Source: Eutreptiella sp. 'Long Island Sound 2002' (lineage: Eukaryota; Euglenozoa; Euglenophyceae; Eutreptiales; Eutreptiaceae). From it: a stretch of 64,000 nt of DNA. The notes beneath the pieces are model-generated. The model saw only the letters and a list, made by a program, of their open reading frames with translations, was not told the origin of the DNA and searched no databases. Where the stretch lies: the NCBI GenBank assembly GCA_964036045.1, contig OZ038391.1, positions 46,410,711 to 46,474,710 on the forward strand, written 5' to 3'. The position numbers and the translations under genes were made by a program. This document shows positions 13,130-62,205 of the stretch, in pieces; the stretch's first letter is position 1; each line of letters starts with the position of its first letter.

Positions 13130-15440
13130 GACAGCCGGGACCCCACGCCCGCTCACCGCACCCACAGCCAGTGGGTACTGGGCCCCGGCCGCACGCCCCA
13201 GAGGACGGGCGGTCGGGGGTGGGAGAGCGCCCGACCCCTGACGCCCCACAGCCAGGCAAGAGGCGCCCCCCCCCGGGTGCCCTCGGGCCGCCCCCACACC
13301 GCGCAAGAGCGCGCACGGTGGGGTAGGTGACGGGTCCCCACGCCCGCACCCCCCGCACCCACAGCCAGTGGGTGGCGGGCCCCGGTTGCACGCCCCAAAG
13401 GACGGGCGGTCGAGGCTGGGAAAGCGCCCGACCCCGGGCGCCCCACAGCCAAGCAAGAGGCGCCCCCCGGGCGCCCTCGAGCCTCCCCCACAGCGCGCAA
13501 AGCCAGCCTGCAAGAGCGCGCTGTGGGGTTGGTGACGGGTCCCCACGCCCGCACCCCCCGCACCCGCAGCCAGTGGGTAGTAGGCCCCGGCCGCACGCCC
13601 AGAAGGACGGGCGGTTCAGGGGGGGAGAGCGCCCGACCCCGGACGCCCCACAGCCAGGCAAGAGGCGCCCCCCCCAGGCGCCCTCGAGCCGCCCCCACGG
13701 CCCGCAAAGCCAGCTCGCAACAGCACGCGCTGTGGGGTAGGTGACGGGTCCCCACGCCCGCACCCCCCGCACCCACAGCCAGTGGGTGGTGGGCCCGGGC
13801 CGCACGCCCCAAAGGACGGGCGGTCGGGGGTTGGAGAGCGCCTGACCACGGACGCCCCACAGCCAGGCAAGAGGCGCCCCCCCTGAATGCCCTCGAGCCG
13901 CCCTCAAAGGGCGCAAAGCCAGTTCGCAAGAGCGCCCGCCGTGGGGTCGGTGACGGGTCCCCACGCCCGCGACCCCCGCACCCACAGCCAGTGGGTCCTG
14001 GGCCCCGGCCGCCCGCCCCAAAGGACGGGCGGTCGGGCGTGGGAGAGCGCCCGACCCCGGACGCCCCACGCCCAGGCAAGAGGCGCCCCACCGGGCGCCC
14101 TCGTGCCGCCCCCAGGGCACGCAAAGCCAGCTCGCAAGAGCGCGCGCTGTGGGTTCGGTGACGGGTCCCCACACCCGCAGCCCCCGCACCCGCAGCCAGT
14201 GGGTAGTGGGCCCCGGCCGCACGCCCCAAAGGACGGGCGGTAGGGGCTGGGAGAGCGCGCGACCCCGGACGCCTCACAGCCAGGCAAGAGGCGCCCCCCC
14301 CCGGGCGCCCTCGTGCCGCCCCCACGGCACGCAAAGCCAGCTCGCAAGAGCGCACGCTGTGGGTCCGGTGACGGGTCCCCACACCCGCATCCCCCGCACC
14401 CGCAGCCAGTGGGTAGTGGGCCCCGCCCGCACGCCCAAAAGGAGGGGCGGTCTGGGGTGGGAGAGCGCCCGACCCCGGACGCCACACACCCAGGCAAGAG
14501 GCGCCCCCCCGGGGCGCCCTCGCGCCGCCCCCACAGCGCGCAAAGCCAGCTCGCAAGAGCGCGCGCTGTGGGGTTGGTGACGGGTCACCACGCCCGCACC
14601 CCCCGCACCCACAGCCAGTGGTTAGTGGGCCCCGGTCGCACGCCCGAAAGGGCGGGCGGTTGGGGTTGGGAGAGCGCCCGACACTGGACGCCCCACACCA
14701 AGGCAAGAGGCGCCCCCCCCAGGCGCCCTCGTGCCGCCCCCGCGGCGCGCAAAGCCAGCTGGCAAGAGCGCGCGCTGTGGGTTTGGTGACGGGTCCCCAC
14801 AGCCGCACCCCCCGCACCCACAGCCAGTGGGTGGTGGGCCCCGGCCGCACGTCCCAAAGGTCGGGCGGTCGGGCGTTGGAGAGCGCCCGACCCCGGACGC
14901 CCCACAGCCAGGCAAGAGGCGCACCCCTCGGGCGCCCTTGTGCCGCTCCCACGGCGCGCAAAGCCAGCACCCAAGAGCGCGCGCTGTGGGTTTGGTGATG
15001 GGTCCCCACACCCGCAGCCCCCCCACCAACAGCCAGTGGGTAGTGGGCCCCGGCCGCACGCCCCGAAGGACGGGCAGTCGGGGGTGGGAGAGCGCCCGAC
15101 CCCGGACGTCCCACAGCCAGGCAAGAGGCGCCCCCCCTGAATGCCCTCGAGCCGCCCCCACAGCGCGCCAAGCCAGCTCGCAAGAGCGCGCGCTGTGGGT
15201 TTGGTGATGGGTCCCCACGCCCGCACCCCCCGCACCGACAGCCAGTGGGTTCTGGGCCCGGGCCGCACGCCCCAAAGGACGGGCGTTCGGGGTTGGCAGA
15301 GCGCCCGACCCCGGACGCCCCACACCCAGGCAAGAGGCGCCCCCCTTGGGTGCCCTCGTGCCGCCCCCACAGTGCGCAAAGCCAGCTCGCAAGAGTGCGG
15401 CCGTGGGGTCCGTAACGGGTCCACACGCCCGCACCCCCCG
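13130..15440 (+). repeat. ~206-bp tandem array of X1
   Basis: About 11 units, each with a landmark GGGTCCCCACGCCCGCACCC, then CCACAGCCAGTGGGT, GGACGGGCGGTCGGG and GCAAGAGGCGCC. Landmarks recur every 205-212 bp (for example 13325, 13530, 13741, 13951, 14156). One unit corresponds to roughly half of the ~420-bp unit of X2 and of the N1 upstream array. Confidence 0.93.
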
Positions 15441-16224
15441 CACCCACAGCCCCAGCCGCATGCTTCAAGGGCCCGCCCAAAGGGGGGCACACAACCCCAA
15501 GCCAGGCAAGGGGGGAAGGGGACCGGGCCGCTCCCCCCACCAAGCAAACCAGACAGCGCACGGGACCGAGGCAGGACACTGCGGAGGGGCACGGACCGCG
15601 TGGAACGGCCCTACCAGCACCCAGCACCGGAACCGCGCGAGGTGCGCGCACCACACCGACCCAGGGTGGGGGTTAGGGCGCGAACGCCGCGAGAGCGCAA
15701 GCGGACGCACACGCAAAGGACACGCGGGCAGGACCAGAAGGGCAACCAGACGGAGCCCGCGGAACGCACACACCGCACCGAATGGCGTACCAGCGAGCGA
15801 GGATAAGGGACACGGCCCGCCACACACAGCGCGGGAAACGCGGGGCGAGAAGGGGGAAACAGGGAAGACACAAACCCCGGCACCGGCCCCAACCCCCCCG
15901 AACCGGCCGCGAGCGCCGCGTACACACAGCCAAGGCACTGCACCCGCCAAGGCAGTAGTGGCGCACCACGCAACGCACCAGCCCCACAGCTAGGCAGCCT
16001 CCGCACCAGCCCACGGGGGTCACACTGGCGACAAGCCAGTAGCACGGGCCCTGCGGCGCCGGCACCCCTGCAGCTACGGCTGCTAAGCGATGCACTGACC
16101 GGGGAGTGGCGAAATGGGGAAGCCGGGGAGGGACAGGGCTCCAAGCCCTGTGAACCCGGGGGACTCTGCCACCAGGCAGGAGGTGTGTCATGAAGGGCCC
16201 CCCACTAGGACCTGGTGGGAAGAA

Positions 16225-19132: not shown

Positions 19133-20895
19133 CTAGGCGCGCACGGAGGCTGAGCGGTGGTAGACGAGCGTGCCCACGAGGGCCACAGCTGCCTGCTGGC
19201 ACCGCGTTGGCACCCGCGTGAGTCCCAGGGTCCGGTCATCCTGCAGGCTGTCCTGCAAGGCGTCGAAAGCATACCGCACCCTGTTCTTCGCGACCTGGAC
19301 CGTGAGGTGGTCCAGGTGGCGCGCGGTGCTGGAGTCGTCGGCGATGAAGGGGGCGCCATATTGCGTCACTCCCCCCGGGATTGCCAGGATGACGTCCTGC
19401 ACCACTTTCGGCGGCGCGAGGATGTTGAGGCACCAGTGGGGTACCGCCGCCAGGCGCAGCCGGTGCTTGCGCTGCAGGGAGAACTCCCCATCCGGCTGCA
19501 GCTGGAGTCCCACGTAGGAGACGGAGTCCGCCGCCGGCACCCAGTGCCATGGATTTTCCAGGTGGGGGCAGAGGCGTAGCTGCAGGCCCGGAACCCCCTC
19601 CGTGGTGGCCATGGCGCACTTGCGGGGGTTGAGCTCCATGCCCATCATCCCTAGGTACGCGGCCACCCCCTCCACACCCTCGACGAAGTGCTGAAGCGTG
19701 TGGGCCACTACCAGCAGGTAGTCTATGTAGGCCTGGATGAGGCGCCTTTCGGCCTCCCCGGGCAGACGCAGGCGGTCCCCCTGGGCCCTGAGTAGGGGCT
19801 CGAGGAGGGGCGCGTACAGTAGGGGGCTTTCAGGGTTTTCCTGCCGGACGCCGCGCAGCATGTCGACGGGCTGCGTGAGCCCGTGCGCGGTGACGATGCG
19901 CAGCCCGGCGCATGTGTGGAGGAAGAGCAGGAGGTCAATGACCTCCGGCGGCACGGAGATTTGGCGCAGGATGAGGTGGAGGGCGCCGTGCGGGGCGTTG
20001 TCGAAGGCCTTGCGGGCGTCGAAGGGGAAGAGGTAGTTGGGCATTCCCCGCTGGAGCTGCCGCTGCGCCATGAACAGGGGGGGGCCGATGTTGGAGCCGG
20101 GGAGGGCCCCCCGCTGCCAGTCGCTGACCACTCCGTGCTGTGTGAGCACCTCCGTGATGTGTTGGGTGAGGGGGCCCGTGAGCAGCTTCATGTCCAGTTG
20201 GCCCAGGGCTATCGGCCGGTAGTCGTCCAGCCTGGCGGAGCCCGGCACCTTGGGGCTGAGCCAGATGTGCGCAACCCTCCAGTGCATCGGCTGCGGGGCG
20301 CCGCAGAGGATGGCCCGGTAGGAGTGGACCAGGAGCCACTGGACGGGCGCCGGGAGGGCCTTGATGAAGCGGGCCTCCACGTGGTTGGGACCTGGGGCCT
20401 TGCCATCGGCCTTGTCAAGCGCGGACCGCAGGTCCTGCATTGAGTACTGCTGGACCTGGGCCCAGGCCCCATCTCGGACCCGGGGCACATGGCGGCCAAG
20501 GACCGCCTGGAAGCCGGGGAGGTCCACCGGGCGTTTGTCGTACAGCTCCCGCCAGAAGGCACGAACCGCAAACATCACGTCGTGGGCCTCTGAGAGGAGC
20601 GTTTGGGTGTTGGGGACCCGCACGTCCCAGAGGCCCGACGGACCCGGGGCCTCCACCTCTATGGCCCCTGGCACGGCTTTCCACCGCTCGGCGATGTACT
20701 GGGGGTAGCGGGGCCAGAAATCTTTGATGGCGCGCTTGTGGTTGGCCGCCAGGAGTGCGCGCAATTGGCGGATGTCCTCCTCGAGGGTGGCTGCTTGCCT
20801 CTCCAGCTCCTCCTGCAGCTGGCCCTGTGTGGCCGGGCGGAACCCGGGCGATGCACCTCGCAGCTCCTCAGTGAGTCGGAGCGCTGCCTCAGATT
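19133..20895 (-). pseudogene. N1 reverse transcriptase, catalytically damaged
   Basis: The open frame 20764-19133 (543 codons, extending upstream in frame to the DNA-transposon junction at 20895) is a non-LTR reverse transcriptase. Visible motifs in order are KAPGPNHV, a DDYRPIALG block, motif A (FDARKAFDNAPHG), motif B (GVRQENPESPLL) and motif C. Motif C reads YIDY instead of YIDD: the second catalytic Asp is Tyr (codon at 19718-19720), consistent with one G-to-T change. Motif B has QEN where QGC or QGD is usual. The frame is long and otherwise clean, so loss of activity looks recent. The frame upstream belongs to the same ORF as the endonuclease at 27.5-28.6 kb, now 6.6 kb away because of the transposon. 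Confidence 0.88.
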
Positions 20896-20924
20896 CTTAG
20901 GCGGCTCAAGTTGCATGGTCAAAA
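20896..20924 (+). repeat. Left terminal inverted repeat of the DNA transposon
   Basis: 29 bases identical to the reverse complement of 27450-27478. Confidence 0.95.
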
Positions 20925-21242
20925 TACGCCCAAAACTGCCTGTCCGCGGCACTGCGGAAAAATAGTTCTTTTGGGGGGACCCAAAAACACAAGAACCAAA
21001 AATCCCGTAAAAAGCAATTAACTGGTCCATTTTCATTTATTTTCAAGAAAACCGACTGCCCAGGAAAATGATTTATTTCTCCAAAAATGAAGTACTTTTT
21101 TGGGAAAACCATGACTTTTTGTTTCCTCTACCACTTATGCTTTCCAATAAAAACACCCATGAGCTTTCAATCTTTTTGAAAACCAGTTTTCGAAAACCAT
21201 GTTGCACGCAGCACCACAAGAAGCTTTTTTTGGCACCCCTTC

Positions 21243-21264
21243 TTTGCGCGAGGCCTCGCGCAAA
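21243..21264. repeat. Palindrome copy 1
   Basis: Perfect 22-bp palindrome with core GCGCGAGGCCTCGCGC, about 130 nt downstream of the ParB-like gene stop. Confidence 0.95.
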
Positions 21265-21352
21265 CACCAACACCACAGCGCAATAAAATGCATCACAGAG
21301 AAAAATGTGCTGCACAAGGTGACAGCAAAATGGTCGTCGAAGAGGAATGCAT

Positions 21353-21370
21353 AGCGCGAGCCCTCGCGCA
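21353..21370. repeat. Palindrome copy 2 (variant)
   Basis: GCGCGAGCCCTCGCGC, one central mismatch to the consensus, just downstream of the ParB-like gene stop. Confidence 0.9.
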
Positions 21371-21395
21371 TAATATATCAGAACAAACGAAGAAA

Positions 21396-24369
21396 TTACT
21401 TTTTTTTCGGAACAACTTGCATCTTAGAACCCAGTGCCTTAGCAACGGACGTCTTACCCTTAGGCGGTGGCTTTGCGGGCTTGCTCCTTGGTTGGGACTG
21501 ACGGGCTGGCTGCTTGAAGGGAGCTCGGGCCCCGGTTTCCTCGGACCTCGGCTTCGCTGCCGCTTTCTTTGCTGCCTTGCCCTGGGAGACCTGCGGCTCC
21601 TCCTCCTCTTCTTCCTCGCTCTCCTCCTCTTCATCCCCATCGCTCTCGTCGAATTCTGCACTGGTAACCGACTTTGCTGCCTGAGGCTTGGAATCAGTCT
21701 TCTCCTTCTTGGGGGCTGGTTCCCCACCAGTAGACTTCCGCTTTGCAGGGGCCTGTGCTTCTGCAGCTTGACCGTTCCCAAGAGTCTCTTCCTCTTTCAG
21801 CGACAACGCCTCAGAACCCAACTTCTCATCGCGAACCCAAAGGGGAATACCACAGTTTGCCCAGTTGGCCTGCTGGTCCCAATCACCAGACGCGTCGAGT
21901 TTGGACCCTTGTGTCAAGACGTGGTTCAACTGCGTCTGCACTCTGTTGACCCAATCTGAGAGATTGTCGGTGGTGACACCAAGAAGGTACATGCAAGAAT
22001 CCGGCTCAATGGACGCAATCTTGCACACCAGGTCTGGCTGATGATCAATGAACACAAACGAAGGCTTGAAGCTCTTGTCCTGCTTCAGGTAATGGAGGTG
22101 AGTGTCGAAATACGACAAAAAACCGTCGTTATCGGAAGGGGACAGCCAAATTCAACAGCATCCATCTCCTCTACTTGAGTAGGTCCAAACGTCAGATAAT
22201 TCGGAGTCTGCAAAGAGGGAGAAATTGTTGCGCGAGGCCTCGCGCAAAGAGCGGACGTAATTACGGAATTATACCTTTCTCGTCCAGCTATCTGGTGACG
22301 AAATCAGCAACCAGCAAACGTCGAACGTTGTAGGATCCCCTGCAGGCTTCGGTTTGACTGGCCAACTGAAGATGGTAACACGCAACATGTTAGCCATGCG
22401 CGGCGCGTTGAAATCATCGTTGAGACGCCTCTCTGTTTCCGTTTCCAGCACGTCGAACATGTTGTCAACAACAGTTTGAGAGCCGCAGATAAGGGTATCG
22501 GCACGCGCCATCTCTTCATACAGCCAGGCTGGGCACATCATCTCAGGAGCAAGATGTTCAAATATGTTGCCGTTGACGACAATCAGGTTCTTGTCAATCT
22601 CAATAAACCGCCTCGGGGGATCGTGGGCCAAACCTGCAATTTGGGTCGCCTTAATTGTGATAGTTTGACTTGCCAGTAATGGATCCTGCTGTTCCACTGT
22701 CTTGAAGTCACCAGTAACGCCAGCAGCTGGGGGGACCACACGGCTCTTGGTAGGCTCTGGACCCAAGAGTTTTTGGACGTTGAGGATTTTCAGGGAGGCG
22801 GGTTTGCCTTTCTCTGCCACCTGGGACACATGGACCGGGTGGCCGCGACAATGCCTTCCCAAGCACATGCGGGAGCGGCTCAAGAGGCACCTGACATAGG
22901 GCAGTGGGAGGGACAGGACGTCCCCTTGGTAAGACCTTCTTCCTGCAATGCCAAAGGAGGCATCCCGAGCTCCCGAAGATACCTACCCACCTACCTCTGC
23001 CACCTGCCACAGTGGTGTGCGAATCATGGATTTGAATGCCGGCCATGGACCGCGACTTTTGCCTTCAGACTCACGCGAATAGCCCCATGTACCAAGAGTC
23101 ACCTTCAGGGCAGGCCTTTCAAGTGCAGCAACCTCTTTGCGGGTGCGCATGTTCTTGGCTAAAGAACAGAAATGGGGAAGGTGCAGTGCACCAACGCAGA
23201 AACGGAACCCACGTCTCGTCGATGGTACACACCTTTCTCAGGTCGAACGTACTGGCCGTTGTGCGGGTGGTCCAGATGCATTGAGACCCACTGGTCAAGG
23301 ATGATGTCGTCACACGAATTCTGCAAGGATTTAAGGGTTGTTTTTTTTCTTCCTGCATCCTTTCTGCCACTTTCTTGTAGAACTCCGGCAGGAGGATCCC
23401 GTCCAGTTTCCTCAGCGCGTTCTTCGTGACTTTCTCACCTTTGTCGTGGAACTTCTGCAGACCTTTCACAGCTTCCGGACCAGCATAGTAGGCAAACGTC
23501 ATGAAATTCTTCCAGAATTTATACGTTTTGTCCTGAAAGTGACAACGTTATGCGCAAGGCCTCGCGCAACGAACAGCATCGAAACAACGATTAATGAACA
23601 TACGAATTGACCAGGCTGCTTCAGTTCAGCGGTTGGAACCAGGGCACTCATCTGCACAGCATCCACAATGGCGATCTTGAGATTGCTGTACGTGTCAGCC
23701 AGGCCTCGCCGCCGCTGATCTTCAACACATCGAATGAGGTTATCTGCTGCCTCATACAGCGGTATTGGCTCAACGTCTTGTGCGCTTCCTTGTGCTTGTC
23801 CCGCCAGCTTTGCACGGAAGGCCCACGGTGTCGTAGGCTTCAGAATATCGGCGATGCATGTAGTATGCCACTGCTGCAGATCCAGACAGGCTGTGCGTCG
23901 CTTCTCCCGAATCTTCGCAAACGCTTCCACGCTGTGCTGTCCAGATACACACCAATAATCGCCATCTGCAAATATGAGACACGTCCATGTGCGAGGGCTC
24001 GCGCAACGAGAAGAGCGAACAGTCGGTTGGCAACATACTATTATCTTCCCAGAGAACGACGTGTAATGGGCCTGTTGGCGGTGCTGCTTCCAGTGACTCA
24101 ATACGCTTGTGCAGTAACTTCGTATCTTTCCGTCTGATCTGTCCCTTTGTCTTCTCCTGGTCGATTCTCACGTTGTCCAGCTCAACCTCCACCTGCCTCC
24201 CATCTGGCTTCAAGTGGTCCTCGATGTCAGTACCCAAGGTTAGGCCAGAATCTGGTGTTTCCTTCTTCTTCCGCCCCTTCTTTGGTGTTCCAGCCTCCGA
24301 TCCTGAGGTGCCAGGGTCAGAGTCGGTATCTTCTCGTTCCTCGGCTGTTATTTTGGCGGGGCTTGCCAT
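21396..24369 (-). CDS. ParB-like protein of the DNA transposon, six exons
   Basis: Exons inferred from GT-AG sites and frame: 24369-24039, 23965-23604, 23532-23233, 23158-about 22992, 22813-22275, 22207-21396. Start at MASPAKIT (24369). The N-terminal third has an acidic/basic tail, then a ParB/sulfiredoxin-like pattern: a VELDNVRI strand, a helix, a PLHVVLWEDN strand and a GDYWCVSGQHSVEAF motif resembling the DGxHR box, with Ser where Arg is usual. The C-terminal third ends in Asp/Glu-rich and Lys/Pro-rich low complexity. Two breaks: a 1-nt shortfall in an A run in exon 3 (near 23342) and a 1-nt shift near 22130 in exon 6. In bacteria ParB binds a palindromic site; here it may bind the element's own palindromes (inference). 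Confidence 0.5.
22208..22274 (-). other. Intron 5 of the ParB-like gene with central palindrome
   Basis: 67-nt intron, GTATAATT donor and CTCTTTGCAG acceptor, joining codons in phase 0. The perfect palindrome TTGCGCGAGGCCTCGCGCAA occupies 22228-22247. Confidence 0.85.
22814..22991 (-). other. Intron 4 of the ParB-like gene (no palindrome)
   Basis: About 178 nt. The donor lies in a GTAGGTGGGTAGGT run, so several donors are possible; use of GTGGGT keeps the frame. Acceptor GGTGGCAG. Confidence 0.6.
23159..23232 (-). other. Intron 3 of the ParB-like gene (no palindrome)
   Basis: 74-nt intron from GTGTGTACC to a strong pyrimidine tract and TTTAG. Splicing restores the frame, which otherwise hits a stop. 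It lacks the palindrome seen in introns 1, 2 and 5. Confidence 0.7.
23533..23603 (-). other. Intron 2 of the ParB-like gene with central palindrome
   Basis: 71-nt intron, GTATGTTC donor and CACTTTCAG acceptor, phase 0. A palindrome copy with one mismatch occupies 23551-23569. Confidence 0.85.
23966..24038 (-). other. Intron 1 of the ParB-like gene with central palindrome
   Basis: 73-nt intron, GTATGTTG donor and ATATTTGCAG acceptor. Splicing joins ...WEDN to NGDYW. A slightly decayed palindrome copy occupies 23990-24006. Confidence 0.85.
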
Positions 24370-24530
24370 TCTGCGAAAACCGGAAAGCCTGTATTGCAGT
24401 AAACAAAACATTGAAAAATATTAAAATCGTCATCAATAATGCATATGTGACGCGTTTTTAGCGCAAACGAGTACAGTATGGTTGAGAATGCAAAACTGAA
24501 GGGGCACGCCATTGTTCTTGACTGTCAACC

Positions 24531-24550
24531 TTGCGTGAGGCCTCGCGCAA
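24531..24550. repeat. Palindrome copy (intergenic 1)
   Basis: TTGCGTGAGGCCTCGCGCAA, one mismatch to a perfect 20-bp palindrome. Confidence 0.92.
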
Positions 24551-24584
24551 GGGAGGGGACGTAATAACCTGTTGTATCATGCTG

Positions 24585-24604
24585 TTTGCGCGAGGCCTCG
24601 CGCA
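24585..24604. repeat. Palindrome copy abutting the DDE-like gene stop
   Basis: TTGCGCGAGGCCTCGCGCAT lies directly against the stop codon (24605-24607) of the upstream gene. Confidence 0.92.
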
Positions 24605-26554
24605 TCACTGCATGTTCTCCAATCTTCTTCGAACGTTTCGCAGCGTGTCGGCCTCTCTCTGTTCCTCCAACACACTGCGTTGGGGGATCAGCTCCGACAA
24701 TTTTCGCTTAAAACAGGCCTTAAGCGGCCCCTGCTGCGTCAGCACCAACAACACAGACACAAGGACTTGTTTGTAGTGGTTAGAACCCTTTTGAATTAGA
24801 AGAGACGGTGGAAAGTTAGGTACACCCCTGCGCGACCAATCTGCCTGAATTGTACAAGTAGGTTCAGCACACCACCTAACCCAGTGCACATATACACGCT
24901 CTGCGTTCAAGTAAGCAGTTAACCGCTGACGCACGGTATTGACAAAGGAATTGGGGATTTTGCAGGCATTCACCCTGTGACCTTCTTTGCGGATAGTGAT
25001 GAGATGGTACAGATCGTCAACATCTTCAATGGTCACTGCACCTCTGTTTTGGCCCTTCTTTGTCACAAGGCTGGAGAGCAGACTTTCACAAAACTCCTCG
25101 GAAAAAGCCTGTCCAGGCATGGCTGTGTGCCATGCAGTGGGGCACAATAGCGCAGTTGCAACAGTGCGTTCGTACTTTAAAAGTGTGTCCCCCATGTTCA
25201 AACGGTCCAACAGACACATAACGATCTGCTATCTCTCAGAAGCAAAAACACCCGTGTTGGCCGTCTCCCCGGCCCAATTGCACTGTCTAACGAGGTGTCC
25301 TAGGTATATTAACATAGGACAGTATTGTGTTAACAGAACCTGCATGGTCTTACACACAGCGTACCGGAGGCGACTTCGCCGATTTACATGACGTGCCAGC
25401 CCAAGGGAATGACATTTTCCGTTGAGGCGCCGTATGTGGGGGCCCATACCCAACAGCAGTGCGCCAACAGTTATCTCCATTGTGATCAGCTTGGGGAAAC
25501 AGGGGACTGTGTCACCGCTGCGCAGCAAACCTTTACGGAACAAAGTCACGATCGGCCAAAATGAGCGGAATGTTTGTGTAACGCAAAATTTGTACGCGTG
25601 CCAGATACCATACAATACAGGGTGTGACCGCAAGAAAAGCCGGACATTCCAACCCGTTGTTTTTTCACCACACATCATCTTACAAATGCGGTAATGGATG
25701 TTCTCATCACATAAAACAGGGACCACTGGTCGAGTGTGCTGCGCCAAGTCCCTAGTGAATTGCAATAGGTTAAGCAGCGAGACGTTGCCGCTCACCTTTT
25801 CTTTGCTTAGACAAAGGGGTTGCCACTGTGGTCTCTTGGCAGGTACAGGGCGAATAATGTCAGGCGGCGCCCTAATGTATCGAACAACAAGCCGCGTGCT
25901 TGCAAATCCTAGATCACGCAGGATACGTGCAAACGTTCCCTCGGTGTTCCCCAGCATGCGTGCAACAACAGGTACACGCCGGTCAAGCTCTTCCAGGCTA
26001 GGATGACCATGCCAGTAGCGCGGTGCATCCCTCGATAGCAAAACAGCCAACGCTGTTGCGTTAAGGCTTTTGTCGTTCTTGTCAGGACTTGTGGTAAACT
26101 GTTTGTTGTACCAGTTGTCCATCCATAACACAACCCACTGCTGGTGTATTTTGTTCCATATAGTCTGTAACCTGACTGCGGCCTTTTCCTTCACCGAAGG
26201 TGCGCTATATCGCGCCAGACCTGACCTTGCTAAAATGCGACGCTGCGCCCTAGTTCCCTCTATCGCAAAAGCTGACTTTGGTTTTCCCTGGTATTGAACT
26301 GCGCGGTGGCGCATCAGCAAATAAAGGCGCCAGGCTTCCTCTATCAAAACACCAACCCATCTCTTGCCTTCTGCCGTAATCGCCTTTTCAACGCTGCAAC
26401 GCGTCCGTTCATTTTTGCGCAGACGCAGAAAAAACACAAACAACAATCGCGCGCCCTCGTCCCCCTGTTTTAGCCCTTCCCACCATTCTTCCGCCGTGTG
26501 ATACGGCGGTTCCTCTGAGCAGACATCGCGGAAAACTCCAGATGCTGCGGCCAC
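24605..26554 (-). CDS. Putative DDE/RNase H-fold transposase with one in-frame TAG
   Basis: One continuous frame of about 649 codons from Met at 26554, interrupted by a single TAG at 25229-25231; both halves read in the same frame. Candidate catalytic acids are D146 (WMDNWYNKQF), D283 (VLCDENIHYR) and E360 (ITMEITVGAL); the spacing and helix/strand pattern around them resemble an RNase H-fold transposase, but I cannot name a family. The region between is rich in conserved-looking aromatic and Arg residues. Position inside the element with inverted repeats supports a transposase role. Upstream frames near 26.5-27.0 kb could be further 5' exons. The TAG may be a mutation, readthrough or part of an unseen intron. 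Confidence 0.55.
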
Positions 26555-26978
26555 TGTCTTCTCAAGGTCCGCCTCTTTTCACAGGGGCATTGTTGCTGTG
26601 AAAAATAATTGCGTAACTGTATCTGCGTAAAAATCACTGTTTGAAAAACTTTCTTGCTTTGAAACATCAACCTGTCACACAGGTTTCGCGCGACCAATTG
26701 TTCTATGATTCGCTTGTCGCATGCACCATTTTCGGTTAACTGTAACTGTCTGGTGGTCCCACATTTGACTAGTTAATCCTGATTGCGGTACCCAGTTGCG
26801 GCGCGCTACCATCGCTGTTGGGCAGTGAAGCCATCGGTAACCACAGTATGAAAACTGGAGATGCCGGGGGAACCTGCATGGGTGCGCATGCAGCAGCGCC
26901 GCATCAAGGGAATGCACATGCTGTGTAGTTGGTGGATCTGTTCCATTTTTGGTTTCTATGAGCGCTTGTGACCTCCAT

Positions 26979-26998
26979 TGCACGAGGCCTCGCGCAAC
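26979..26998. repeat. Palindrome copy (upstream 1)
   Basis: Core variant CACGAGGCCTCGCGCA with one mismatch. Confidence 0.9.
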
Positions 26999-27036
26999 GA
27001 TCACCGAGACTTGAATGTTTCTCATGCGCCGTTCCA

Positions 27037-27053
27037 TGCGCGAGGCCTCGCGC
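27037..27053. repeat. Palindrome copy (upstream 2)
   Basis: Contains the perfect 16-bp core GCGCGAGGCCTCGCGC. Confidence 0.93.
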
Positions 27054-27261
27054 TTGAAACTACAGTTTGTTCCGGAACATTTATACCTTTCAAGATTCTT
27101 GGGTACACCATTGTTGAACTTTATTCATTAATAGATCCATCTCTATCACGCAATCCTGATACTGGTACTAAGTTACTTGTAAGAATACGACAGGGTTCCA
27201 TTTTTTGACACCCTGCCTAATGCGTCGTGCTGTAGTACATTAATCTGACACAATTGAACGT

Positions 27262-27285
27262 CTTTGCGCGAGGCCTTGCGCAAAG
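27262..27285. repeat. Palindrome copy (upstream 3)
   Basis: The longest copy: 24 bp with one mismatch, about 165 nt from the right terminal repeat. Confidence 0.92.
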
Positions 27286-27449
27286 ATTGGTCACAAAACA
27301 ATACTTTTCCCTGTCTTGCCCACAGGACACGTCATTCTTATAGAAATATTTATTTCCCCATATTTGTTTGCGACGGTTTAGAAATATCCATCAAAACAAC
27401 AATTTTTGATGCCTTTGGAAACCTGTCATTTTCCTACCTTTTCCTTCGT

Positions 27450-27478
27450 TTTTGACCATGCAACTTGAGCCGCCTAAG
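27450..27478 (-). repeat. Right terminal inverted repeat of the DNA transposon
   Basis: Exact reverse complement of 20896-20924; N1 sequence resumes at 27479. Confidence 0.95.
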
Positions 27479-28560
27479 ACATTGGATGCCCTGGCGGGCC
27501 GTGTTTGCCTGGTATGCCGCCGGCGCGCATGCTGCCAGGGCGTCGTAGCCGAGGATCGCCGCCTGGAGCCGTTTCCCGCTCTCAGGGGGGTCCCCTCCTG
27601 CCGGGTCCGACCCCGTCGGGGACGGCTGCCGGCGCCCCACCACGCGCGCCAGGGCGTCATGCGCCGTGTGGAGGTGTTCAAACACCTTGTCTACAGCGGT
27701 TGCAGGGCATTGACCAGTAGGCGTGCTGCTCAGCGGGGCCCAGCCAAGGCGCCAGGGAGGGCTCGTCGTGTGCAGCGGTGACCGCTGGCCACAGGCAGCG
27801 TTGGACAGGCGCGGCCTCGCCGTCGTACGGGAGGAGGTGGCCCTCCGTGTGGCTGTAGGGGGTGAGCATTGCCGTGTGCCCTGCCGCGTTGGGGAGGCCC
27901 GGCAGGGCCAGGCGGACCGGGAGGTGGTCCGACCCGATCACCTGGGGGTGTGCCATGCCGCGGGCCCAGACGCTCTCCCGCAGGAGGGGCTCGTTGACCA
28001 GGAAGGTGTCCAACCTGTGCTGGGACGGGTGGAGCGTGGGGGTCATGTCCTCCACACCGCCTGCCGTGGCCCTCCGGCAACCGCAGGCCTCCCAGCCCAC
28101 TCGGAAGTGCTGCGTGGCCAGGTTGGTGGTGGCCTCCATGTAGATGTTGGTGTCGCCGGCGATGACCACCGGGTGCCTCCCTACGAGGCTGCGGGCCGTG
28201 GCATACATTTGTATGTTCCCCAGAAGGCCGCCCGCCCCGCCCAGGGGGAGCAGCCTGCCTGCCGTCCGTGGACATTGAAGAGGGTGAGGTCACCCCCGTC
28301 TGTGCGGATCTCCAGGGCCGCGGCCTTCCCGGGGACGTTTTCCGTGAAACTGAGCACCTTGTGCTCGGCCACGTAATTGCTGCTGAGGGCGGTGAGGAGG
28401 CCTCCCCCTCTCGAGGTGGAGTTGGCCCCTGTCTTCGCCAGCCGGCTACTGAAGAACGGGGTGTAACCCTTGTCCTGGAGCGCCCCGGCCACGTGCATCT
28501 CCTGCGCCCGGGTGGCGATCCCTGTCTCTTAGAGCATGATGGCAAAGCCCCCCTCCCGGG
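27479..28560 (-). pseudogene. N1 apurinic-type endonuclease (EEP fold)
   Basis: Catalytic blocks of an exonuclease-endonuclease-phosphatase domain appear in order on the minus strand: an LxET block (28520-28535), LTLFNVHG, GDTN (28145-28156), RLDTFLVNE and GSDHLPV (27920-27938). This is the target-nicking nuclease of APE-type non-LTR elements. Three breaks are visible: the LQET block reads L-stop-ET (TAA at 28530-28532), a frameshift lies near 28200 between NVHG and GDTN, and another near 27680 before the linker to the reverse transcriptase. The linker reaches 27479 and is cut there by the DNA transposon. Confidence 0.85.
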
Positions 28561-32600: not shown

Positions 32601-33060
32601 CGAAGGGGGAGGAGCGTGCGCACATTCGTAGACACAAGTGCGAACGCAGGTATGTTATACGCCGCAACGCCGCAACGAACGTGGTGCCAACGATGCACGA
32701 CGAAAGCCCACATACCCCCACCCTTCTTTTTGTCTCACAGGGCGCAACGAGAAAGAAAGCCGGCGAAGAGAAAGACAGAGACACACACCAGGGCGGAGGC
32801 AGGGAAAAAGTGCATGCCAGGGAGAAGGGCAAGCAGAGGAAAGGGAAAAGAGCGACGAAGCCACGAACGAAACAAGGGGTAGCCAGCAGCCGAGCAAGGC
32901 ACGCGCGCAGGGAAGGGGGCACGGCAGGCACACGGCACACGGCGGGCACCACACCGCACCGAAGCACCGGAGAGGGGAGCACGAGAGGGACAAGAGAAAA
33001 GCGGCGCCACGCACCACGACACCCACCGCACAGACACCACACACACCGCATACACCCACA

Positions 33061-35870
33061 CCCACGTTCACAGCACGTGGCCAGCGAGCCCCGGCAGCCC
33101 GCCCAGAGGGCGGGCAGCCGGGGAAGGGGGAGCGCCTGACCCCAGACGCCCCTCACAACGGCGAACGGCACCCCCCCCGGGGACGCCCATCCGCCACCCC
33201 CACAGCGCGCAACGCCGGCCTGCAAGAACGCGCGCCGTGGGGCCGGTGCTGGGTCCCCACGTCCGCACCGACCGCACCCGGGACACACGGGTCGCGGAAC
33301 CCCGGCTGCCCGCTCAAGACGACAGGCGGCCGGGGGAGGGACAGCGCCTGACACCAGACTCCCCTCACAACGGTGGCAGGCCACCCCCCCCGGGAACGGC
33401 CCCCCACCATTGCCAAGGCACGCAGCCCCCACAGAGCATGCAGGCCAAGGGGACGGTGCTGGGCCCCCACACCCACACACCCTCGCCCACAGCACGTGGG
33501 TGGCGGACCCCGACGGCCCGCCCAGTGAACGGGCAGTCGCGGGAGGACCTCAGACGCCCCTCACAACGGTGGAAGGCATCCCCCCCGGGGACGCCCTTCC
33601 GCCACCCCCACAGCGAGCAACGCCGGCCCGCAAGGGCGCACGCTGTGGGGCCGGTGCTGGGTCTCGGCGCCTGCACCGACCGCACCCAGGACACACGGAT
33701 CGCAGATCCCCGGCTGTCCTGACACCAGACGCCCCTCACAACGGTGGCAGGCCACCCCCCCCAGGGACGGCCCCCCACCAACCCCGCGGCACGCAGCCCC
33801 CACAGGGCATGCAGGCCAAGGGGACAGTGTTGGGCCCCCACACCCACACACTCGCGCCAACAGCACGTGGGTGGCGGACCCCAACGGCCCGCCCAGCGGG
33901 CGGGCAGTCGGGGGAGGGGGAGCGCCTGACCTCAGACGCCCCTCACAACGGTGGAGGGCACCCCCCCCGGAGATGCTCTTCCGCCACCGCCACAGCGAGC
34001 ATCGCCGGCCCAGAAGGGCGCACGCTGTGGGGCCAGTGCTGGGTCCCCACGCCCGCACCGACCGCACCCGGGACACGCGGGTCGCGGAACCCCGGCCGCC
34101 CGCCCCAGAGGACGGGCGGCCGGGGTAGGGACAGCGCCTGACAGCAGACGCCCCTCACAACGGTGGCAGGCCACCCCGCCCGGGGACAGCCCCCCACCAC
34201 CCCCGTGGCACGCAGCCCCCCAGGGCATGCAGGCCAAGGGGACAGTGTTGGGCCCCCACACCCACACACCCGCGCCCACAGCACGTGGGTGGCGGACCCC
34301 AACAGCCCACCCAGTGGGCGGGCAGTCGGGGGAGGGGGAGCGCCTGACCTCAGACGCCCCTCACAACGGTGGAGGGCACCCCCTCCGGGGATGCCCTTCC
34401 GCCACTGCCACAGCGAGCAACGCCGGCCCGCAAGGGCGCACGCTGTGGGGCCGGTGCTGGGTCCCCACGCCCGCACCGATCGCACCTGGGACACACGGGT
34501 CGCAGAACCCCGGCTGCCCGCCCCAGAGGACGGGCGGCCGGGGGAGGGACAGCGCCTGACACCAGACGCCCCTCACAACAGTGGCAGGCCACCCCCCCCG
34601 GGGAGGGCCCCCCACCAACCCCGCGGCACGCAGCCCCCACAGGGCATGCAGGCCAAGCAGACAGTGTTGGGCCCCCACACCCACACGCCCGCGCCCACAG
34701 TATGTTGGTGGCGGACCCGAACAGGCCGCCCAGTGGGCGGGCAGTTCGGGGAGGGGGAGCACCTGACCACAGACGCCCCCCGGAACGGTGGAAGGCACCC
34801 CCCCGGGAACGCACTTCCGCCACCCTAACAGCGAGCAACGCCGGCCTGCAAGGGCGCACGCCGTGGGGCTGGTGCTGGGTCCCACGCCCGCACGGACCGC
34901 ACCCGGGACACACGGGTCGCGGAGCCCCGGCTGCCCGCCCCAGAGGACGGGCGGCCGGGGGAGGGACAGCGCCTGACACCAGACGCCCCTCACAACGGTG
35001 GCGGGCCACTCTTCCCGGGGATGGCTGCCCACCTGCCCCGCGGCACGCAGCCCCCACAGGGCATGCAGGCCAAGGGGACCGTGATGGGCCCCCACACCCA
35101 CATGCCCGCGCCCACAGCATGTGGGTGGCGGACCCCAACAGCCCGCCCAGTGGGCGGGCAGTTCGGGGAGGGGGAGCGCCTGACCACAGACGCCCCTCAC
35201 AATGGTGGAAGGCACCCCCCGGGAGCGCCCTTCCGCCACCCCCACAGTGAGCAACGCCGGTCCGCAAGGGCGCACACTGTGGGGCCGGTGCTGGGTCCCA
35301 CGCCCCCACCGACCGCACCCGGGACACACGGGTCGCGGAACCCCGCCCGCCCGCCCCAGAGGACGGACGGCCGGGGGAGGGACAGCGCCTGACACCAGAC
35401 GCCCCTCACAACGGTGGCAAGCCACCCCCCTCGGGGACGGCCCCCCACCACCCCCGCGGCACGCAGCCCCCACAGGGCATGCAGGCCAGGGGGACCGTGA
35501 TGGGCCCCCACATCCACACGCCCGCGCCCGCAGCACCCGGGTGGCGGACCCCAACAGCCCGCCCAGTGGGCGGGCAGTCGGGGGAGGGGGAGCGCCTGAC
35601 CTCAGACGCCCCCCACAACGGTGGAAGGCAGCCCCCCCCGGGGACGGCCCCCCGCCACCCGCGCGGCACGCAGCCCCCACAGGGCATGCAGGCCAAGGGG
35701 ATAGCGTTGGGCCCCCACACCCACACAACCGCGCCCACAGCACGTGGGTAGTGGACCCCAACAGCCCGCCCAGCGGGCGGACAGTCGGGGGAGGGGGAGC
35801 ACCTGACATCAGACGCCCCCCGCAACAGTGGAAGGCACCCCCCCGGGGACGCCCTTCCGCCACCCCCACG
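33061..35870 (+). repeat. ~420-bp tandem array of X2
   Basis: Repeats alternate two related halves: one with GGGCCCCCACACCCACACAC and GCAGTCGGGGGAGGGGGAGC, the other with GTGCTGGGTCCCCACGCCCG and ACACGGGTCGCGGAACCCCG. About 6-7 full units. The same units appear in reverse orientation at 52.1-54.9 and 63.6-64.0 kb. Long frames here are repeat artefacts. Confidence 0.92.
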
Positions 35871-52130: not shown

Positions 52131-54924
52131 TCCCCCTGTTGCCCGTGTGGCACAGGTGGTATGTGCACGGGGGCCTCGCATCGCGCGGGTGTCCCCGAGG
52201 GGTGCCCTGCGCCGTTGCGAGGGGCGTCTGAGGTCAGGGGCTCTCCCTCCCCCTGCTGCCCGTCCTCTGGGCGGGCTGTCGGGGTCGGCCACCGGCGTGC
52301 TGTGGGCGCGTGTGCGCGGGCGTGGTGGTGGGGGGCCGTCCCCGGGGGGGTGGCCTTCCACCGTTGTGAGGGGCGTCTGGTGTCAGGCGCTGGCCCTACC
52401 CCGGCCGCCCGTCCCTTGGGGCAGGCGGCCAGGGCTCCGCGGCCCGTGTTTCCCGGGTGCGGTCGTCGTGGGCGTGGGGACCCAGCACCGGCCCCACAGC
52501 ATGCGCTCTTGCGAGCTGTCGTTGCGCGCTGTGGGGCTGGTGGGAGGGCGTTCCCTGGGGGGGTGCGTTGCACCGTTGCGAGGTGCGTCTGAATTCAGGC
52601 GCTGTCCCTCCCTCGGCCGCCCGTCCTCTGGGCGGGTTGTCCGGGTCCGCTACCCACGTGCTGTGGGCGCGGGTGTGCGGGTGTGGGGGCCCAGCACTGT
52701 CCCTTTGGCTCGCATGCCCTGCGGGAGGCTGCGTGCCGCGGGGGTGGTGGTGGGGGGCCGTCCCCGGGGGGGTGGTCGTCCACCGTTGCGAGGGGCGTCT
52801 GGTGTCAGGCGCTAACCCTCTCCCGGCCGCCTGTCCCTTGAGGCAGGCAGCCAGGGCTCCGCGGCCCGTGTTTCCCGGGTGCGGTTGTCGTGGGCGTGGG
52901 GACCCAGCACCGGCGGGAGGGCGTCCCCTGGGGGGATGCCTTGCGCCGTTGTGAGGGGCGTCCGAATTCAAGCGCTGTCCGTCCCCCGGCCGCCAGTCCT
53001 CTGGGCGGGTTGTCGGGGTCTGCTACCCACGTGCTGTGGGCGTGGTGTGCGGGTGTGGAGGCCCAGCACTGTCCCTTTGGCTCGCATGCCCTGCGAGGGG
53101 CTGCGTGCCGTGGGGGTGGTGGGGGGCCGTTCCCGGGCGGCTGGCCGTCCACCGTTGGGAGGGGCGTCTGGTGTCAGGCGCTGTCCCTCCCTGGACCGCC
53201 CGTCCCTTGAGCCGGGCGGCCAGGGTTCCGCGGCCCTGTCAGTGGTTCCCGGGCGCGGTTGGTGTGGGCGTGGGGACCCAGCAGTGTGCGCTCTTGCGAG
53301 CCGTCGTTGCGCGCTGCAAGGGTGGTGGGAGGGCGTCCCCGGGGGGGGTGCCTCGCGCCGTTGTGAGGGGCGTCCGGTTTCAGGCGCTGTCCCTCCCCCG
53401 GCTGCCCGTTCTCTGGGGGGGCTGTCGGGGTCCGCTACCCACGTGCTGTGGGCGCGTGTGTGCGGGTGTCGGGGCACAGCACTGTTTCCTTGGCTTAAAA
53501 TGCCCTGTGGGGGGCTCCGTGCCGCAGGGGTGGTGGGTGGCCCTCCCGGCGAGGGTGGCCTTTCACCGTTGCCAGGGGCGTCTGGTGTCAGGCGCTGTCC
53601 GTCCCCCGGCCGCCCGTCCTTCTGGGTGCGGAGCCGGCGTTGCACGACCCGTGTATCCCAGGCGCGGTTGGTGTGGGCTTGGGGACCCAGCACCGGTCTC
53701 ACAGCGCGCGCTCTTGCGAGCCGCCGTTGAACGCTGTGGGAGTGGTGGTAGGGTGCCCCCGGGGGGGGTGCCTTTCGCCGTTGTGAGGGGCGTCTGAATT
53801 CAGGCGCTGTCCCTCCCCCAGCCGCCCGTTCTCTGGGCGGGTTGTCGGGGTCCGCGACCCAGGTGCTGTGGGCCCGGTGTGCGGGTGTGGGGGCCCAGCA
53901 CTGTCCCTTTGGCTGGAATGCCCTGCGGGGGGCTGCGTGCCGCGGGGGTGGTGGGGGGCCGTCCCCAGGGGGGCTGGCCGTCCACCGTTGTCAGGGGCGT
54001 CTGGTGTCAGGCGATGTCCCTCCCCGGTCCGCCCGTCCCCTGAGGCGAGCGGCCAGGGTTCCGCGGCCCTGTCAGTGGTTCCCGGGCGCAGTTGGTGCGG
54101 GCCTGGGGACCCAGCAGTGTGCGCTCTTGCGAGCCGTCGTTGCGCGCTGCGGGGGTGGTGGGAGGGCGTCCCTGGGGGGGTGCCTTTCGCCGTTGTGAGG
54201 GGCGTCCGGGTTCAGGGGCTGTCGCTCCACCGGCTGCCCGTTCGCTGGACGGGCTGTCGGGGTCCGCTACCCACGTGCTGACGGGGGTGTGTGCGGGTGT
54301 GGGGGCCCAGCACCGTCCCTTTGGCTTAGATGACCTGTGGGGGGCTCCGTGCCGCGGGGGTGGTGGGGGGCCGTCCCCGGGTGGGGTGGCCTTCCACCGT
54401 TGCCAGGGGCGTCTGGTGTCAGGTGCTGTCCGTCCCCCGGCCGCCTGTTCTTTTGGGTGGGCAGCCGGGGTTCCACGACCCGTGTATCCCGGGCGCAGTT
54501 GGTGTGGGTGTGGGGACCCAGCACCAGTCCCACAGCGCGCGCCCTTGCGGGCCGTCATTGCGCTCTGTGGGGCTGGCGGGAGGGTGCCCCCGGGGGGGGT
54601 GCCTTTCGCCGTTGTGGGGAGCGTCTGAATTCAGGCGCTGTCCCTCCCCCGGCTGCCCGTCCTCTGGGTGGGCTGTCGGGGTCCGCTACCCAGGTGCTGT
54701 GAGCGCGGATGTGCGGGTGTGGGGGCCCAGCACTGTCCCCTTGGCTTACATGCCCTGTTGGGGGCTGCGTGCCGCGGGGGTGGTGGGGGGCCGTCCCGGG
54801 TGGGTGGCCTTCCACTGTTGTGAGGGGCGTCTGGTGTCAGGCGTTGTCCCTCCCCCGGTCGCCCGTCCTTTCGGACGGGCAGCCGGGGTTCAGCCACCCG
54901 TGTGTCCCGGGTGCCTTTGGTGTG
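52131..54924 (-). repeat. ~420-bp tandem array upstream of N1 ORF1
   Basis: Landmark GCGTCTGAATTCAGGCGCTG (or variants) recurs at about 52591, 52969, 53369, 53796, 54208 and 54632; some units are shortened. The units are the reverse complement of the X2 array units. Long open frames here are artefacts. Lying directly upstream of ORF1, the array may serve as promoter monomers. Confidence 0.9.
54906..54924. repeat. 19-bp direct repeat, left copy
   Basis: CCCGGGTGCCTTTGGTGTG, repeated exactly at 63602-63620. Left of it the array is in register, and right of it the array stops. Confidence 0.9.
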
Positions 54925-55266: not shown

Positions 55267-55799
55267 CTGTGGGCAATGGAAATAGCGCTTCGCACTGCCT
55301 CACTGCCTGGGGGCGGTGGGCAGTGCAACTTCTGCAATCCGCTGCCTCACTGCCCGGGGGCAGTGGGCAGTGCAACTCCTGCAATGCACTGCCTCAGTGC
55401 CCTGGGGCAGTGGGCAGTGCAACTCCTGCAACGCACCGCCTCACTGCCTGGGGGCAGTGGACGGCGCAACTCCCGCAATGCACTGCCGCACTGCCTGGGG
55501 GCAGTGGGCAGTGCAACTCCTGCAATGCACTGCCTCACTGCCCTGGGGCAGTGGGCAGTGGAACTCCTGCAATGCACTGCCTCACTGCCTGGGGGCAGCG
55601 GACAGTGCAACTCCTGCAATGCACTGTCTCACTGCCCTGGGGCAGTGGGCAGTGGAACTTCTGCAATGCACTGCCTCACTGCCTGGGGGCAGTGGGCGGT
55701 GCAACTCCTGCAATGCACTGTCTCACTGCCCCGGGGCAGTGGGCAGTGCAAATCCTGCAATGCACGACCTCACTGCCTGGGTGCAGTGGCCGCACTCCT
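55267..55799. repeat. 47-bp tandem array abutting the LHC 3' end
   Basis: Units built on CAGTGGGCAGTG, CAACTCCTGCAATG and CACTGCCTCACTGCC recur every 47 bp (55314, 55361, 55408, 55455 and on), about 10-11 copies. The LHC reading frame runs into the last copy and stops at 55770. Confidence 0.93.
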
Positions 55800-61525: not shown

Positions 61526-62205
61526 TTCGGAGTCTCCTGCCAGGCCAAAAGGGGGGGGCCATCGTCTTCAGAGAACCGGGCGCACCGGCCCGGGGGGGAC
61601 GGGGAGTCCTGCCCAGGGGGTGTTCGGAGTCTCCTGCCAGGCCAATGGGGGGCCATCTTCTTCAGAGAACCGGGAGCACCGGCCCGGGGGGGACGGGGAG
61701 TCCTGCCCAGGGTGTGTTCGGAGTCTCCTGCCAGGCCAATGGGGGGTCATCTTCCTCTGGGAACTGGGCGCACCGGCCCGGGGGGGACAGGGAGCCCTGC
61801 CCAGGGGGCGCTCGGAGTCTCCTGCCAGGCCAAAAGGGGGGGGCCATCGTCTTCAGAGAACCGGGCGCACCGGCCCGGGGGGGACGGGGAGTCCTGCCCA
61901 GGGGGTGCTCGGAGTCTCCTGCCAGGCCAATGGGGGGGCCATCTTCTTTAGAGAACCGGGCGCACCGGCCCGGGGGGGACGGGGAGTCCTGCCCAGGGGG
62001 TGTTCGGAGTCTCCTGCCAGGCCAATGGGAGACCATCTTCTTCAGAGAACCGGGCGCACCGGCCCGGGGGGGACAGGGAGTCCTGCCCAGGGGGTGTTCG
62101 GAGTCTCCTGCCAGGCCAAGGGGGGGCCATCTTCTTCAGAGAACCGGGCGCACCGGCCTGGGGGGGACGGGGAGCCCAGCCCAGGGGGTGTTCGGAGTCT
62201 CTTAG
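61526..62205. repeat. ~95-bp tandem array abutting the LHC 5' end
   Basis: CGGAGTCTCCTGCCAGGCCA recurs at about 61527, 61624, 61719, 61812, 61910, 62004 and 62098, with a final partial copy at 62191; each unit also holds GAACCGGGCGCACCGGCCCG. The junction with LHC unit 1 is abrupt. Confidence 0.94.

Follow-up and report, generated by a model that had tools for sequence, protein, structure and literature searches.

Only for a small number of systems, including VANC in Arabidopsis, is it known in detail how transposons recognise their own DNA and escape silencing. In the En/Spm (CACTA) element, with TnpA and TnpD, TnpA binds repeated sub-terminal motifs and counters methylation. In VANDAL elements, the VANC motif YAGTATTAY is repeated in non-coding regions including introns, is enriched by family and changes with the family (PMC5735166). 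The Ectocarpus element Sola1-1_Ec32 carries a ParB-methyltransferase protein proposed to bind and modify its own element, and proteins of this sort are also known in transposons of green and red algae (PMC12477816), so that a ParB-like accessory protein would in itself be no novelty among algal transposons. Transposon-encoded countermeasures have a further precedent in fungal transposons with TET/JBP dioxygenases (PMC12730594). Here, we analysed a 64,000-nt stretch of the Eutreptiella sp. 'Long Island Sound 2002' genome (contig OZ038391.1, positions 46,410,711 to 46,474,710; the window), which carries at positions 20896-27478 a DNA transposon with two minus-strand genes, A and B, and ten copies of one 20-bp palindrome. 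The layout of these palindromes, conserved across three diverged families, supports well the view that they belong to a self-recognition system, as an earlier note on this DNA had suggested.

Like En/Spm, this is a two-gene element; its terminal inverted repeats (TIRs), however, start with CTTAG and not CACTA, its target duplication measures 5 bp and its sites are spread over the whole element. Transib also makes 5-bp duplications, but the termini of both hAT5 and Transib differ from those found here. For hAT5, 5-bp duplications are named in a reference title within PMC12730594; duplication size is thus alike in both, while gene B has no Pfam match to any transposase domain. With VANDAL/VANC the element shares the combination of transposase, accessory protein and family-specific short motif in non-coding DNA, but the VANC motif is non-palindromic and lies in fast-evolving tandem repeats, whereas here ten 20-bp dyads are dispersed in a stable layout. 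VANC is not called ParB-like in the available part of PMC5735166. A ParB-like domain in the accessory protein of a eukaryotic transposon is common to Sola1-1_Ec32 (PMC12477816) and, as suggested by profile comparison, our element, in which, unlike there, gene A is without methylase motif (three C-terminal parts examined), candidate cognate dyads are visible and gene B has no Pfam match. Transposases and recombinases are abundant in E. gracilis, although this element is not described in the available part of that report (PMC12455990), and about 32.7% of the E. gracilis genome consists of unclassified repeats (PMC11252322). In searches of the open-licence literature, no title or abstract opening among those listed described the element.

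The window element is a degenerate copy of a two-gene DNA transposon of cut-and-paste type, with TIRs that start CTTAG and 5-bp duplications. Its 29-bp TIRs are 100% complementary in an inverted-repeat search of the window, which reads 30 bp instead of 29 because the flanking T and A pair too, and the duplication size of 5 bp is fixed by relatives of this copy. The G+C content of the element is about 50-53%, compared to 66-72% in the surrounding kilobases. A scan for the palindrome with up to 3 mismatches gave ten matches in the element, none elsewhere in the 64 kb and none in 100 shuffles, and the perfect 12-bp core GCGAGGCCTCGC occurs four times in the window, each time inside the element (a 12-nt exonic part-match at 23698 was left out of the palindrome count). 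The earlier note had described a DNA transposon with 29-bp perfect inverted repeats, two minus-strand genes and ten palindromes, all of which could be confirmed, with the qualifications that both genes are degenerate in this copy and that the palindrome positions had been off by 0-3 bases.

Across the genome (2.28 Gb in 2205 contigs), the palindrome was found at 13,886 places with up to 2 mismatches per strand, compared to one for the reversed control pattern; this number takes in a variant of a second family, named F2, since that variant differs by 2. TIR ends with at most one mismatch number 1747 + 1717, with a control of 0. The 50 listed perfect TT..AA places, all on contig C1 and in position order, fall in loci L001-L030, some of them overlapping, and every one lies within the family of the window element (AUT) or within a 1.7-kb family (NA1). 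AUT stretches at these sites are mostly 91-94% identical to the window family, with one piece at 90% and L009 at 79%, and NA1 stretches are 94-95% identical, with L027 at 82%. With the listed perfect sites confined to elements, a palindrome equally common outside them was therefore not what we found, and the palindrome is, in this sample, specific to the elements. An exact 5-bp duplication flanks 10 of the 11 AUT/NA1 loci with both ends. NA1 has the TIR of AUT and four palindromes. BLAST of AUT with NA1 gave 39 matches of at most 40 bp, 35 of them on palindromes, four on TIRs and none elsewhere; the longest stop-to-stop frame of NA1 has 122 codons, and tblastn with proteins A and B gave nothing better than E=0.24. 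NA1 thus keeps ends and sites while carrying neither gene.

Two distant families, F2 and F3, extend this picture. F2 is 46% identical to AUT in gene B and 35% in gene A; with its gene B protein P0116, 68 of 8464 candidate places were scored, 65 of the 68 being stop-free and 48 sharing one bit score. Six F2 copies are 99.9-100% identical over 4.8 kb, and the family has therefore been mobile recently. The F2 element measures 6860 bp with TIR CTTAGCCCACGCAAACTGCACCC, and both whole elements carry exact 5-bp duplications (AGAGT and AGGGA). In the copy read, gene A is intact and encodes 881 aa, its introns of 69, 73, 71 and 97 bp matching those of AUT in position. The F2 palindrome is GTGCGCGAGGCCTCGCGCAC (GTGCGC..GCGCAC), with a GGGC centre in two sites; it occurs with at most one mismatch at 6345 places (control 0), and 46 of the 50 places listed have a listed neighbour no more than 5 kb away. 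Of the five BLAST matches that AUT and F2 share, three fall on palindromes and the other two in gene B, and the change of the F2 palindrome relative to AUT falls on both arms of the dyad. For F3, the kin of protein P0230, 97 of 6177 candidates were scored, many with stops. At locus L059, a 6641-bp F3 element with ends CTTAGGCGGC and the exact 5-bp duplication TCTTG on both sides carries ten palindromes with core TGCGAGGCCTCGCA at up to 2 mismatches, not counting weaker part-matches (L059 3615; element 2155). Its gene B is 34-35% identical to those of AUT and F2. A 12-bp core common to three families with strongly different proteins could also reflect sites of a host factor, such as a transcription factor, an insulator or a methylation-sensitive regulator, on which the elements converge. 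As all 50 listed perfect TT..AA sites lie inside elements and F2 departs from AUT in both arms of its dyad, we consider this improbable.

The ten sites follow a 3+2+3+2 layout in AUT and F2 and a 3+2+2+3 layout in F3 (Table). None lies in a coding exon, except for one AUT site which overlaps the stop of gene B by a single base; for F3, exon limits were taken from open reading frames (ORFs), and its two intronic sites sit between GTATGT and CAG. By a naive estimate with non-coding fractions of 0.30 in AUT and 0.32 in F2, the chance of such all-non-coding placement is about 1e-5 per family. Occupied introns are 1, 2 and 4 in AUT and 2, 3 and 4 in F2, so that site number and spread appear to be conserved, not the exact place. 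Since three of four original gene A introns contain a palindrome in AUT as in F2, and two F3 sites lie in GT..AG introns, the palindromes might act in RNA, as hairpins in introns or untranslated regions affecting splicing, stability or small-RNA silencing. This is quite improbable, since the occupied introns differ between AUT and F2 and NA1 keeps four sites without either gene. Protein A identity falls to about 19-35% across families, while the palindromes stay conserved.

The sites nearest the ends are almost fixed in AUT and F2, at 196 and 424 from one end and 348 from the other in AUT, and at 198, 423 and 344 in F2. NA1 depends for its mobility on cis-signals alone, and it retains sites at distances of 206 and 375 from its ends. 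The palindromes could, consequently, be cis-sites for transposition, at which A or B pairs the ends and regulates the transposase, much as TnpA of En/Spm does on sub-terminal repeats, with internal sites being auxiliary. Five of the ten AUT sites, however, are internal, between the genes or in introns and as much as roughly 3 kb away from the ends, and the outermost F3 sites lie 268 and 646 bp from the ends, which renders this explanation rather unlikely.

Gene A of AUT has five exons, introns of 73, 71, 74 and 67 bp and about 830 aa by copy alignment. Together with F2, this suggests a protein of 830-880 aa with a putative N-terminal ParB/Srx-like domain. In hhalign, the profile of this region scored 29.6 against ParB and 33.8 with sulfiredoxin added, before inclusion of F3; 100 column shuffles, compared with ParB alone, did not exceed 17.9. 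After F3 was added, the scores were 31.7 and 35.9, with 100 column shuffles reaching at most 18.8 and 17.4. No control window from residue 145 of gene A onward or anywhere in gene B exceeded 14.5; the two at 73 and 109, in partial overlap with the domain, gave 18.9/26.8 and 11.9/17.0, and the known relatives sulfiredoxin and ParB 19.1 against each other. In the aligned region, a first strand and then a helix lead to G-x-Y-x-V-x-G-Q-H, which lines up with G-x-Y-x-x-x-G-E-R-R of ParB in register. The profile comparison supports a ParB/Srx-like domain in gene A, short of proof of the fold. A reading of gene A as a methylase was rejected because the motif [DNS]PP[YWF] was not found in the C-terminal parts of AUT, F2 and F3 examined; a methylase Pfam match was likewise not obtained for gene A. 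A database search with gene A gave five matches, fragments on long ENA contigs, none of them shown to come from another organism, and tblastn of the ParB-like domain against phages returned two records with E of 3 and 5, which are not meaningful.

Bacterial ParB-parS resembles the present system in its palindromic sites and in the ParB-like domain suggested by profile comparison. The occurrence of such a domain alongside palindromes would fit a ParB-parS-like segregation of extrachromosomal copies, a role which the earlier note had also considered. The fetched copies with both ends, however, are chromosomal insertions, nearly all with duplications; there is no ParA-like Pfam match among seven ORF pieces, and GERR is replaced by GQH or KQH. 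Unlike parS, the sites are moreover many and belong to a chromosomal mobile element of a eukaryote, and segregation is barely credible.

Marking by an element-encoded protein is the simplest account of sites that are confined to elements, kept in NA1, changed on both arms by family, non-coding and conserved while A diverges. In the mechanism we propose, the palindromes would be dyad-symmetric binding sites of such a protein, most likely protein A, predicted to bind the ten dyads as a dimer. Via non-coding DNA it would coat every copy, gene-less ones included, and keep the element open to transcription or mobilisation, an anti-silencing role as for VANC of VANDAL elements; the sub-terminal sites might also help to pair the element ends. 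To this mechanism as a whole we give an even chance. Silencing evasion by itself is plausible by analogy; A may act in anti-silencing, in end pairing or in both.

Several points weigh against this proposal. The F3 evidence stems from one locus, L059, and upstream of gene B, a 241-bp stretch matches at 85% identity between AUT (523-761) and F3 (463-701, both in gene orientation), beside which BLAST at E<=1e-3 gave no match between the two. This stretch suggests exchange between AUT and F3 or a shared insert, and DNA exchange may therefore explain part of the families' likeness. The core common to the families might be bound by the product of gene B or by a host factor rather than by A. Site mismatches within AUT amount to 1.9%, compared to 3.8% in other non-coding DNA, a figure which is biased, since loci were picked by perfect palindromes, and which we set aside. 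The ParB match is modest, with hhalign probabilities of 40-78%, to a profile of seven domains, six of them from plasmids, with the Spo0J and sulfiredoxin seeds entered by hand; against sulfiredoxin alone, the domain scored 14.3, no match. Single-sequence HMM searches (Pfam, NCBIfam, PHROGs) gave no ParB match for gene A up to E=10, and gene A had nothing significant in Pfam, NCBIfam, PHROGs or PDB sequences. The previous claim of a ParB-like protein is thus supported by the profile-profile match, which exceeds all controls, and finds no echo in these single-sequence searches. As for methylation, the palindromes of the window copy depart from the family majority in 6 places, of which 5 are CpG transitions, but in other non-coding DNA of AUT copies CpG transitions (4.2%, 51/1230) hardly exceed other mismatches (3.5%, 437/12415), so that the sequence supports methylation weakly. 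Methylation may be within reach of the host lineage, DNMT1 having been reported for Euglena and DNMT5 for euglenozoans (PMC12344493).

Gene B is most likely the transposase of the element, of the DDE/RNase H type. A database search in which 8000 candidates were scored gave 224 matches at E<=1e-3, headed by P0001, which is open over 661 aa at 91% identity, and a profile search gave 119 matches at E<=0.01. W-x-D-N, D-E-N and Y-G-x-W-H-x-Y-K are invariant across 12 aligned gene B proteins, and the EE motif is present in 8 of the 10 proteins long enough, with QE in P0121 and EK in P0230. These motifs are as expected of a DDE transposase, short of proof. No family could be assigned in the comparison with transposase families that the earlier note had proposed, as Pfam transposase models gave no match for the 12 members at E<=5 and a PDB sequence search gave none for gene B, for which PHROGs likewise yielded nothing usable. 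Of the gene limits put forward there (26554-24605), the lower end was kept, while comparison with P0001 moved the start to the ATG at 26590. P0156 and P0168, from other data sets, are 36-38% identical to P0116, and P0219, P0225, P0227, P0229, P0231, P0232 and P0230 28-32%, P0230 being the host's own F3. With P0156 as query, 68 of 7558 candidates in the host were scored and identity reached no more than 38-41%; P0156 is therefore probably from another organism. No gene B relative was found in viral contigs among 37 pattern matches; L049 (IMGVR_UViG_3300001594_000221, 3335) is the sole IMG/VR contig with the exact 18-bp palindrome TGCGCGAGGCCTCGCGCA, at one site.

Euglena has non-conventional introns. 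In the window copy, the proposed splicing of gene A over 24369-21396 was right in its limits and in being spliced, but this copy is also frameshifted and interrupted by a 171-bp insert. What appeared to be intron 4 of 5 was rejected as an original intron, being this insert, which has no counterpart in the compared copies. It is related to the repeat beside L001, and L001 is an NA1 copy inside the repeat that also makes the insert, which shows the empty site. The insert may function as a newly gained, introner-like intron, or it may belong to the non-conventional introns of Euglena. In all five other AUT copies with readable gene A start (L005, L006, L007, L020, L021), the gene is broken by one or more stops or indels.

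Table. Features of the window element (window coordinates), palindrome layouts of the three families and target duplications of AUT/NA1 loci
Feature	Position	Strand	Remarks
Target-site duplication, left	20891..20895		AGATT
Left TIR	20896..20924	+	29 bp, CTTAGGCGGCTCAAGTTGCATGGTCAAAA; identical end seen in other copies
Palindrome downstream of gene A	21244..21263		348 bp from left end
Palindrome downstream of gene A	21352..21371		window scan and layout comparison
Gene A last exon	21396..22207	-	frameshifted in window copy; acidic and basic tail
Palindrome, gene A last intron	22228..22247		window scan and copy alignment
Gene A exon 4, second part	22275..22820	-	copy alignment
Insert	22821..22994	-	net length 171 bp; with a 12-bp direct repeat; GT..AG ends when read along gene A
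Gene A exon 4, first part	22995..23158	-	joined to second part in other copies
Gene A exon 3	23233..23532	-	frameshifted in window copy
Palindrome, gene A intron 2	23550..23569		window scan and copy alignment
Gene A exon 2	23604..23965	-	putative ParB/Srx-like domain, GQH motif
Palindrome, gene A intron 1	23987..24006		window scan and copy alignment
Gene A exon 1	24039..24369	-	basic GRKKK stretch; putative ParB/Srx-like domain begins
Palindrome between genes	24531..24550		window scan and layout comparison
Palindrome between genes	24586..24605		one base common with gene B stop
Gene B, transposase-like	24605..26590	-	WxDN, DEN, WHxYK, EE motifs; two in-frame stops in window copy
Palindrome upstream of gene B	26978..26997		window scan and layout comparison
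Palindrome upstream of gene B	27036..27055		window scan and layout comparison
Palindrome upstream of gene B	27264..27283		starts at base 196 from right end
Right TIR	27450..27478	-	29 bp, inverted-repeat search
Target-site duplication, right	27479..27483		ACATT, 1 mismatch to AGATT (4/5 bases)
AUT layout 3+2+3+2	196, 424, 482 / 2874, 2929 / 3473, 3910, 5232 / 6108, 6216		gene orientation
F2 layout 3+2+3+2	198, 423, 609 / 3103, 3159 / 4138, 4511, 5293 / 6338, 6497		gene orientation
F3 layout 3+2+2+3	270, 377, 437 / 2908, 2969 / 3819, 4902 / 5734, 5842, 5980		core positions, gene orientation
Duplications	L001, L005, L008, L013		TCAAA (L002 = same place), TTACA, ACTTA, CAAGT
Duplications	L015, L016, L019, L024, L028, L029		TGATA, TATCA, ACCTG, AAAAA, AAGCA, AATGA

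Two of the AUT/NA1 settings deserve description. L015 and L016 (G000:C1:22106500-22118000) are NA1 copies separated by about 9 kb; their flanks mirror each other, and the pair represents a single insertion duplicated in inverted orientation. L018 (G000:C1:13375500-13380500), the eleventh locus with both ends, is a foldback-like AUT derivative with a long inverted repeat of the left end and mirrored flanks, its left flank resembling that of the window insertion (AGATT). The window element itself interrupts an ORF which we take, by eye alone, to be reverse-transcriptase-like. Elsewhere in the window, tandem arrays with a unit of about 209 bp lie at 13141-15484, 33046-35866 and 52320-54914, flanking LINE-like ORFs, and a 23-bp repeat array is found within the first kilobases. 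On the minus strand at 55770-61661, a 1963-aa ORF of tandem light-harvesting (LHC) units forms a polyprotein gene with a repeat spacing of 711-732 bp, its LHC identity coming from a PDB sequence search. Rfam and ARAGORN gave no match over the window.

Taken further, these families could form an undescribed superfamily of self-marking eukaryotic transposons, in which a ParB-derived protein would recognise ten dyads, in a layout like 3+2+3+2 in every family, and load an element-wide nucleoprotein complex in trans, on autonomous and gene-less copies alike. It would thereby license the elements to be transcribed or to move in spite of silencing, and its divergence between families would be matched by that of the palindrome arms. 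We offer this wider model tentatively, as possible rather than probable. One genome holds three diverged families with the same number of sites, nearly the same layout and family-specific arms, plus gene-less elements with only ends and sites, and with such a set, simple binding assays can put self-recognition directly to the test. If the model is true, a eukaryotic mobile element whose transposase is unclassified would be shown to carry a ParB-like protein together with visible candidate dyads.

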